Of a stretch of 34,345 nucleotides of DNA, positions 16,803 to 30,062 are shown piece by piece. Numbering within the stretch: position 1 is the stretch's first letter; the number at the start of each line of letters is the position of its first letter. The translations under genes and the position numbers were made by a program. The notes beneath the pieces were generated by a model. It ran no database searches. It had not been told where the DNA came from and saw only the letters and a program-made list of their open reading frames with translations. This DNA comes from Methanocellales archaeon (GTDB taxonomy: Archaea > Halobacteriota > UBA148 > JAUWXC01), in the NCBI GenBank assembly GCA_030610945.1, contig JAUWQV010000001.1, positions 89,901 to 124,245 on the forward strand, given 5' to 3'.

Positions 16803-16912
16803 TGCTCCGGCCGGGATTCGAACCCGGGTCTTCGGCTTTCTTCCCACCTTTTTTAAAAAGGTTGAAGGTTGTTGAAAGGCCGGAATGATTGGCCGGACTA
16901 CACTACCGGAGC
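16803..16912 (-). tRNA. tRNA-Glu(TTC) with 35-base intron
   Basis: The acceptor GCTCCGG (16912-16906) pairs with CCGGAGC (16810-16804), with discriminator A at 16803. The T-arm is CCGGG-TTCGAAT-CCCGG. The anticodon loop is C-T-TTC-A with anticodon TTC. An intron at 16838-16872 interrupts positions 37/38. The last intron bases GAAG pair with loop bases CTTT to form the 4-bp central helix of a canonical bulge-helix-bulge. One oddity is a C-A pair at 27-43 of the anticodon stem. It starts only two bases after the tRNA-Met 3' end, so both come from one precursor. Confidence 0.92.
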
Positions 16913-16914
16913 AA

Positions 16915-17090
16915 TGGGCCCGATGCGATTTGAACGCATGACCGCTCGGTGTCCCACTTTTTTTCCGTTAACGCTTTTGCGAGTAGAGTGCCTGCTTCGC
17001 AGGCACCTGACCACTTACGCAGTAAGTGGCGCAGCGAGGAAAAGGGTTAGTTATGAGCCGAGCGCTCTAACCAGACTAAGCTACGGGCCC
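16915..17090 (-). tRNA. tRNA-Met(CAT), elongator type, with 101-base intron
   Basis: Acceptor GGGCCCG (17090-17084) pairs fully with CGGGCCC (16922-16916), with discriminator A at 16915. The D-arm reads GCTTAGTCTGGTTAGAGC, the anticodon stem CTCGG/CCGAG, the loop C-T-CAT-A-A, and the T-arm ATGCG-TTCAAAT-CGCAT. The G1-C72 pair excludes the archaeal initiator. A tRNA-Ile with modified CAT cannot be wholly excluded. Exon 1 is 17052-17090, exon 2 16915-16950, and the intron 16951-17051 sits at 37/38. The intron bases TGGG pair with CTCA of the loop (one G-T) for the bulge-helix-bulge. Ninety of the 101 intron bases are identical to the tRNA-Leu intron. Confidence 0.93.
16960..17049 (-). repeat. 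Structured 90-base intron core, copy in tRNA-Met
   Basis: It is identical at all 90 positions to 19742-19831. It folds as a closing stem (TTTTCC/GGAAAA) enclosing two perfect 8-bp hairpins (16988-17006, GTGCCTGC-TTC-GCAGGCAC on plus; 17011-17029, CCACTTAC-GCA-GTAAGTGG on plus) and a small CGC-TTTT-GCG hairpin. In this host it is followed on the minus strand by nine intron bases that complete the splice motif. Confidence 0.95.
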
Positions 17091-19670: not shown

Positions 19671-19855
19671 TGCGGGGGGCCGGATTCGAACCGACGAACT
19701 CCTGCGAGAGTAGATCTTGAGTCTACCGCCTTTGGTCAACCTTTTTCCGTTAACGCTTTTGCGAGTAGAGTGCCTGCTTCGCAGGCACCTGACCACTTAC
19801 GCAGTAAGTGGCGCAGCGAGGAAAAGGGTTATTGACCGGACTTGGCTACCCCCGC
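19671..19855 (-). tRNA. tRNA-Leu(CAA) with intron in the D-loop
   Basis: Acceptor GCGGGGG (19855-19849) pairs with CCCCCGC (19678-19672), discriminator A. The anticodon arm is GTAGA-CTCAAGA-TCTAC with anticodon CAA (19719-19717) and is not interrupted. The variable arm is CTC-GCAG-GAG and the T-arm GTCGG-TTCGAAT-CCGGC. The intron, 19732-19831 (100 bases), splits the D-loop: GGTC-AAT-AACC on the 5' side and GGTT-GACC-AAA-GG on the 3' side form a canonical bulge-helix-bulge (GGTC/GACC central helix). Cutting after the second bulge base gives mature GGTCAAAGGC, as expected for tRNA-Leu. The joined exons total 85 bases. Confidence 0.93.
19742..19831 (-). repeat. Structured 90-base intron core, copy in tRNA-Leu
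   Basis: It is identical to 16960-17049. Here the core begins at the first intron base and is followed by ten host-specific bases (GGTTGACCAA) that provide the complement of the D-loop exon for splicing. Confidence 0.95.
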
Positions 19856-29935: not shown

Positions 29936-30062
29936 CGGACACGGGGGGATTTGAACACCCGACATTCGGCTCTCCTCCCGCATCAAAAGAGGTTTTTGAT
30001 CAAACTTTTATTAAAAGTTTGGTTAGAAGGCCGACGCTCTATCCGGGCTAAGCCACGGGCCC
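29936..30062 (-). tRNA. tRNA-Arg(TCT) with 52-base intron and mismatched 3' half
   Basis: The 5' half is regular: GGGCCCG, D-arm GCTTAGCCCGGATAGAGC, anticodon stem TCGGC/GCCGA, loop C-T-TCT-A-A (anticodon TCT). The intron 29972-30023 lies at 37/38; its GAGG pairs with CTTC of the loop for the bulge-helix-bulge. The 3' half deviates: the acceptor reads CGTGTCC instead of CGGGCCC (one G-T wobble, one C-T mismatch at 5-68), and the T-stem GGGTG/CCCCC has a T-C mismatch at 52-62. It may be functional with weak stems, decaying, or affected by sequence errors. Confidence 0.8.

Follow-up and report, generated by a model that had tools for sequence, protein, structure and literature searches.

D-loop intron of tRNA-Leu(CAA) in a Methanocellales-related archaeon, its order-wide occurrence beside a single alpha2-type splicing endonuclease, and a hairpin core shared with other introns

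Known archaeal tRNA introns and the tRNA-Leu(CAA) gene

Euryarchaeal genomes with splicing endonucleases of the alpha2 or alpha4 type have been described as carrying introns in fewer than 10% of their tRNA genes, one per gene and at the canonical position 37/38 (PMC4090602). Intron richness and unusual intron positions are stated to have co-evolved with enzymes of broad specificity; this specificity is tied to the CSL or ASL loops of the (alpha-beta)2 and epsilon2 endonucleases, and the alpha2 enzyme is described as narrow (PMC6379350). From full-length precursors, the EndA of Archaeoglobus fulgidus excises introns at 37/38 that have a bulge-helix-loop motif (PMC6379350). In Thermoproteales, intron transposition between tRNA genes has been reported (PMC4090602, PMC4033280), and the mechanism mobilising these introns is unknown in the literature (PMC4090602). 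Here, we describe an intron in the D-loop of a tRNA-Leu(CAA) gene. The gene is located in a 34,345-nt stretch of contig JAUWQV010000001.1 (positions 89,901 to 124,245, forward strand) from a Methanocellales-related archaeon, and this whole stretch is referred to as the window. The genome containing the window (G000) is 992 kb long in 7 contigs, is 82% complete and is congeneric with the genome G003. No earlier literature on the tRNA introns of this lineage was found among open-licence papers. The intron is of a known archaeal kind.

The tRNA-Leu(CAA) gene occupies positions 19671-19855 on the minus strand, and reading of the sequence confirmed these limits, which had been given by the first-pass annotation. 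Exon 1 (19832..19855) runs from the acceptor strand to the D-loop sequence GGTCAA and is laid out like exon 1 of orthologues that have no intron. The 100-nt D-loop intron (19732..19831) was delimited by the core of its bulge-helix-bulge (BHB) motif and by comparison with the orthologues. Exon 2 (19671..19731), recognised from the sequence and the mature fold, includes the remaining D-arm, the anticodon CAA, the variable arm, the T-arm, the acceptor and A73. Without the intron the tRNA is 85 nt long and folds cleanly as a cloverleaf, in which the variable arm is long and the discriminator base is A73. The layout of this predicted spliced sequence agrees with that of the intron-free orthologues, i.e., excision restores a normal tRNA.

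The precursor was folded, and its junctions paired as the first-pass annotation had described, namely GGTC-AAT-AACC opposite GGTT-GACC-AAA (all elements on the minus strand). The 4-bp core helix consists of GGTC in the exon (19834..19837) and GACC in the intron (19734..19737), and the pair probability is at least 0.99; the GACC strand was also identified in the order-wide comparison of cores. On the intron side, AACC (19827..19830) pairs with GGTT (19738..19741), and three of the four pairs have a probability of 0.67-0.81. According to the BHB rule, the 5' bulge AAT (19831..19833) is predicted to be cut between 19832 and 19831, which restores the sequence of the intron-free orthologue, and the 3' bulge AAA (19731..19733) between 19732 and 19731. 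The following order of events can be proposed: the precursor would fold the BHB core at the two junctions between the D-loop and the intron, a single alpha2 endonuclease would cut each 3-nt bulge after its second base, and an RNA ligase, assumed to be RtcB, would join GGTCAA to AGGC. Both the cutting and the ligation are thus predictions made from the sequence. A remnant of a group I or group II intron was excluded as a candidate and has practically no chance of being correct, given the size of only 100 nt, the BHB structure at the junctions and the absence of any such Rfam match in the window.

General tRNA finders miss this gene: the Rfam tRNA model gave 14.4 bits, which is under the cut-off, and ARAGORN did not recover the gene correctly. 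Such a result would be expected of a pseudogene in which the insertion broke the tRNA, with UUG decoded by tRNA-Leu(TAA). This explanation is highly improbable, since exon 2 is intact and 95-98% conserved in four relatives, and the same insertion is present in all leucine isoacceptors with the core helix of the junction kept. A second intact tRNA-Leu(CAA), which would have pointed to a non-functional gene, was not found: the DNA search of the genome (82% complete) revealed one Leu(CAA) locus, and therefore a dead gene would be costly. All of this allows us to consider the locus as very probably a functional archaeal tRNA gene, the D-loop intron of which is spliced.

Leucine tRNA introns across the order

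The order was represented by 11 genomes, which are metagenome-assembled genomes (MAGs) of mixed quality labelled Methanocellales and including UBA148 and Met33H. Orthologues of tRNA-Leu(CAA) were searched for in 40 relatives using the 60-nt exon 2, and the sequence upstream of each match was then read. An insertion at the same junction was found in the tRNA-Leu(CAA) of nine relatives within the order (G001-G005 and G007-G010). The tRNA-Leu(CAA) genes read from the rest of the phylum, including that of G018, do not contain an intron, and their D-loop continues directly in the predicted spliced form. The exception is the distant genome G037 (L073), in which an unrelated insertion is located in the D-loop of this gene.

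A model of the leucine exon 2 located leucine genes in all 11 genomes of the order, and the 5' end was readable in 46 of them. A D-loop intron at the identical junction was found in 43 of these 46 genes, with the anticodons CAA, CAG, GAG, TAA and TAG; in the genome of the window, three leucine genes contain it (CAA, CAG and GAG). Only the Leu(TAG) genes of G001 and G004 and the second Leu(TAG) gene of G007 are free of it. The core helix is complete in 40 of the 43 introns. A T-to-C exchange at exon position 20 is accompanied in many genes by an A-to-G exchange of the opposing intron base, so that the pairing is mostly retained. Very long introns of 216 to 253 nt with several stacked hairpins were observed at L263 and L267 (G004) and at L259 (G009).

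The extra sequence folds as a long stem on the D-loop, and it could in principle be a D-loop extension (expansion segment) that is retained in the tRNA and never excised. There is little probability of this. The length of the insertion varies from 28 to 253 nt across the order, different genomes have unrelated interiors but a conserved junction, and the intron-free Leu(TAG) genes of G001 and G004 have exactly the sequence of a spliced product. As regards the history of the intron, its position is probably old within the order, where nearly all leucine tRNA genes have it. It could have spread among the leucine isoacceptors by descent from one intron-bearing gene or by conversion between them.

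Splicing endonuclease and the form of the junction

The first-pass annotation had expected a crenarchaeal (alpha-beta)2 or epsilon-type endonuclease and had proposed to identify and classify the gene. A PF01974 search and an alignment were used for this, and the expectation did not hold. The genome of the window contains one PF01974 locus, which encodes a single 348-aa protein with two PF01974 domains; the gene beside it reads as a tryptophanyl-tRNA synthetase. The nearest solved structures in the PDB are the endonucleases of A. fulgidus (1r0v, 2gjw type). In the C-terminal half, Y, H and K residues are aligned with the catalytic triad of the Methanocaldococcus jannaschii enzyme, and the N-terminal half lacks the histidine of this triad. 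By these characteristics (one gene, fused domains, a complete active site only in the C-terminal half) the protein can be assigned to the alpha2 class (alpha'2, Archaeoglobus type). In addition, one locus with two domains was found in all 13 relatives searched, including the distant genomes G016, G018 and G037, and no second endonuclease locus was found in the relatives that are 94-97% complete.

The best match, 3p1y, appears to be the A. fulgidus enzyme bearing the crenarchaeal loop. At the corresponding place, FFGKPLDEE-RLQLSLVES, the endonuclease studied has approximately one extra residue compared with the wild-type A. fulgidus enzyme and does not have the insert of 3p1y. The features associated with broad specificity, namely a second subunit and a loop with its lysine (CSL or ASL), were not found, there being one locus and the loops being compared at the sequence level. 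Like the A. fulgidus alpha'2 enzymes 1r0v and 2gjw, this endonuclease is a two-domain single chain with Y/H/K in its C-terminal half and no crenarchaeal-specific loop. However, narrow specificity has been described for the A. fulgidus enzyme, whereas the presumed substrates here include D-loop introns in all leucine isoacceptors.

Several observations weigh against splicing of these introns by a lone alpha2 enzyme. The helix on the exon side of the junction (CC:GG) has at most 2 bp and a probability of 0.02 in the folded precursor; it rarely forms because the D-stem and other pairings compete with it. According to the published rule, relaxed motifs are removed efficiently only by (alpha-beta)2 or epsilon2 enzymes (PMC6379350), and neither was found at the one endonuclease locus of the genome. 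Since this genome is 82% complete, a gap in it could hide another endonuclease subunit or another Leu(CAA) gene. The core helix contains a C-A mismatch in three Leu(TAA) genes (G005, G007 and G008). Finally, the observed pairing was reached in 159 of 5000 shuffles, so that the covariation is of only moderate strength; this is because the GG is invariant, the exon types are few and the exon side varies little.

With a canonical core and intron side and a weak exon side, the element should be described as a BHB intron with a relaxed exon side and not as the strict hBHBh' form. The earlier description of the motif as fully canonical was therefore too strong. Its suggestion that even a strict endonuclease might accept the motif is favoured, since only the alpha2 type is present, provided that splicing takes place as predicted. 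The D-loop intron with a BHB core is itself borne out by the sequence, the precursor fold and the orthologue comparison. It is genuine, occurs across the order and is found alongside a single alpha2 enzyme that has none of the loops known to give broad specificity.

The number of tRNA genes was determined by Rfam and ARAGORN searches and completed by hand reading. Introns were found in 24 of the 40 tRNA genes of the genome, compared with about 8% reported for Euryarchaeota. The order is thus a counter-example both to the rule of few introns, located only at 37/38, for alpha2/alpha4 Euryarchaeota and to the rule of co-evolution with the enzyme. This counter-example is open to testing with a single enzyme and several of its natural substrates. 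Moreover, standard finders miss or misread these tRNA genes, and such genomes consequently look poorer in tRNAs than they really are.

Intron interior and the dispersed hairpin core

A 90-nt stretch of the Leu intron (19742..19831, minus strand) is an exact match to positions 16960-17049 in the intron of tRNA-Met(CAT); the first-pass annotation had missed this identity, as well as the order-wide occurrence of the intron and its dispersed core. The tRNA-Met gene (16915-17090, minus strand; Rfam match) contains a 101-nt intron at 37/38 (16951..17051, called by ARAGORN) and is located on the same strand about 2.7 kb from tRNA-Leu(CAA). In this genome the Leu intron and the Met intron both contain an extra hairpin insert of about 44 nt, which is missing from the two introns of G003; there, the two introns differ slightly from each other and both already have a related core. 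The simplest account is that, once this genome and G003 had diverged, a change in one of the two introns was copied into the other, and this would be the recent step by which the Leu and Met introns came to share the 90 nt; we infer the direction and mechanism of the copying from the same sequences. Plain gene conversion between introns that already shared the element, with no recent transposition, is a probable cause and is compatible with the proposed origin of the intron interior discussed below. The related core in both introns of G003 and the proximity of the two genes on one strand argue for it, but it leaves the first arrival of the element at different positions (D-loop, 37/38, 16S rRNA and RNase P) unexplained.

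The 90-nt stretch contains a dispersed hairpin core, AACCCTTTTCC...GCAAAAGCGTTAACGGAAAAA, which was recognised by the family model R1. A common core, AACCCTTTTCC...GCAAAAGCGTTRACGGAAAA, was found in introns of tRNAs for Gln(CTG), Ser(TGA), Gly(TCC), Arg(GCG), Pro(TGG), His(GTG), Met and Leu. It is also present in the 16S rRNA genes of G004 (L086) and G001 (L094), where the junctions CTGT-TAA / GCAG-AAA form a strict BHB motif, the predicted splicing would restore CTGTTAAGTCAG, and the site is apparently the known archaeal locus 1093 (PMC4496867). An antisense copy of the core is located in the P3 loop of the RNase P RNA of G004 (L091/L140, G004:C1:607408-607808). Hairpin repeats were observed in the P3 loop of RNase P RNA at L138, L139 and L141 as well, and the P3 hairpin of G003 and G009 resembles the D-loop intron of tRNA-Leu(CAG) in the genome of the window.

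R1 is a covariance model of the core trained on 16 sequences, so that only the remaining matches are independent. In the order it gave 30 matches with E < 1e-6, namely 25 in tRNA genes, two in 16S rRNA, one in RNase P RNA and two others; hence, 28 of the 30 lie in RNA genes. One of the two others is in a glycosyltransferase-like reading frame of G004 (L173, G004:C1:562939), where an element-like segment of 39 nt is in frame (NPFRKSVYGK), and the second, in G009, does not fall within a recognised RNA gene. Weak matches (E from about 0.0003 to 0.01) in coding and intergenic DNA of relatives were treated as chance. Outside the order, all R1 matches listed below 1e-5 among 197 sampled genomes of the phylum were found in the family f8 and in one f28 genome. 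The f8 genomes (e.g., L226, L217 and L234) contain many dispersed hairpin copies, both in intergenic DNA and within reading frames; some of these copies lie inside IS200-like transposase genes, one in frame. In G141, one intergenic copy that lies in no recognised RNA gene shares 45 exactly identical nt with the intron of tRNA-Gly(TCC) in G002.

Less firmly than the intron itself, we propose that the intron interior is populated by a mobile hairpin. The interior changes fast and is filled by hairpin repeats that occur also in other tRNA introns and in a 16S rRNA intron. The AACCC arm of the element pairs with GGTT or GGGT at the junction, which suggests a tight fit of the element to the splice motif; several orders of events could give the same result. 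As a tentative and rather uncertain extension, a mobile hairpin, which in one family of the phylum is scattered through intergenic DNA, may land in spliceable tRNA and rRNA introns of this small-genome, Methanocellales-related order, colonising or even creating introns, while the strict-type alpha2 endonuclease stays. The 45-nt identity between G141 and G002 and the concentration of strong matches of the order in RNA genes are the support for this extension. A Y1 (IS200/IS605) transposase was considered as the mover and rejected: one intact copy is present in the genome of the window and none in G001-G004, and no consistent link was seen.

Alternatively, the interior could be kept for a function and not be a mobile or copied repeat, for example if the excised intron yields a stable or circular RNA. 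The motif GCAAAAGCGTTRACGGAAAA is strikingly conserved, and archaeal tRNA introns can carry functional RNAs, e.g., the box C/D RNA of tRNA-Trp introns (PMC4090602). Nevertheless, in another family of the phylum the motif also occurs in intergenic DNA and within coding frames, and it is often missing from the orthologous Leu introns of closely related genomes, which makes this alternative rather unlikely. The hairpin bears a general resemblance to REP-, PATE- or MITE-like repeats, being a short, imperfect palindrome that is dispersed and occurs in either orientation (antisense in the RNase P RNA of G004). Unlike such repeats, within the order it is nearly confined to RNA genes, where it lies mostly in introns, and no transposase was tied to it.

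Thermoproteales-type intron transposition (PMC4090602, PMC4033280) is similar in the large share of intron-bearing tRNA genes and in the BHB junctions. Near-identical introns in different tRNA species and positions, which characterise that type, were also found here (the 90-nt Leu/Met identity and R1 in the tRNAs of eight amino acids). In contrast, the endonuclease is (alpha-beta)2 in Thermoproteales and alpha2 without broad-specificity loops in this Methanocellales-related lineage, and the occurrence of the core here extends to 16S rRNA and RNase P RNA, as well as to intergenic sites in another family. The 16S rRNA BHB introns of Thermoproteales (PMC4496867) are likewise small and non-coding, and the related element in the 16S rRNA genes of G004 and G001 has the strict BHB form; however, the host here is a MAG of a methanogen lineage, and the core is also found in its tRNA introns. 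The order thus offers a second, independent system for the spread of tRNA introns, in which close relatives differ by single events.

Downstream of tRNA-Leu(CAG), an orphan sequence resembling a tRNA 3' end was observed (L044, GAGGGTTCAAATCCCGCTCGCCCGCA), which G003 does not have at the corresponding position. The idea that it is one half of a split tRNA was rejected, since the stems mispair; the piece is likely a degenerate copy of the 3' end of the neighbouring Leu gene, which it resembles. Two further intron-bearing genes are located on the minus strand of the window. The tRNA-Glu(TTC) gene (16803..16912) has an anticodon-loop intron and was identified by an Rfam match and from its sequence, with the anticodon read by hand because ARAGORN mislabels it as selenocysteine (SeC). 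The tRNA-Arg(TCT) gene (29936..30062; Rfam match and ARAGORN) has a 52-nt anticodon-loop intron. Elsewhere in the genome, hand reading revealed a probable 17-nt D-arm intron in tRNA-Ile(GAT) (L027, G000:C4:156784-156875; GTTG-GAA / CAAT-ATG) and probably two introns in tRNA-Ala(GGC) (L038, G000:C4:156548-156675), one at 37/38 and the other in the variable loop.
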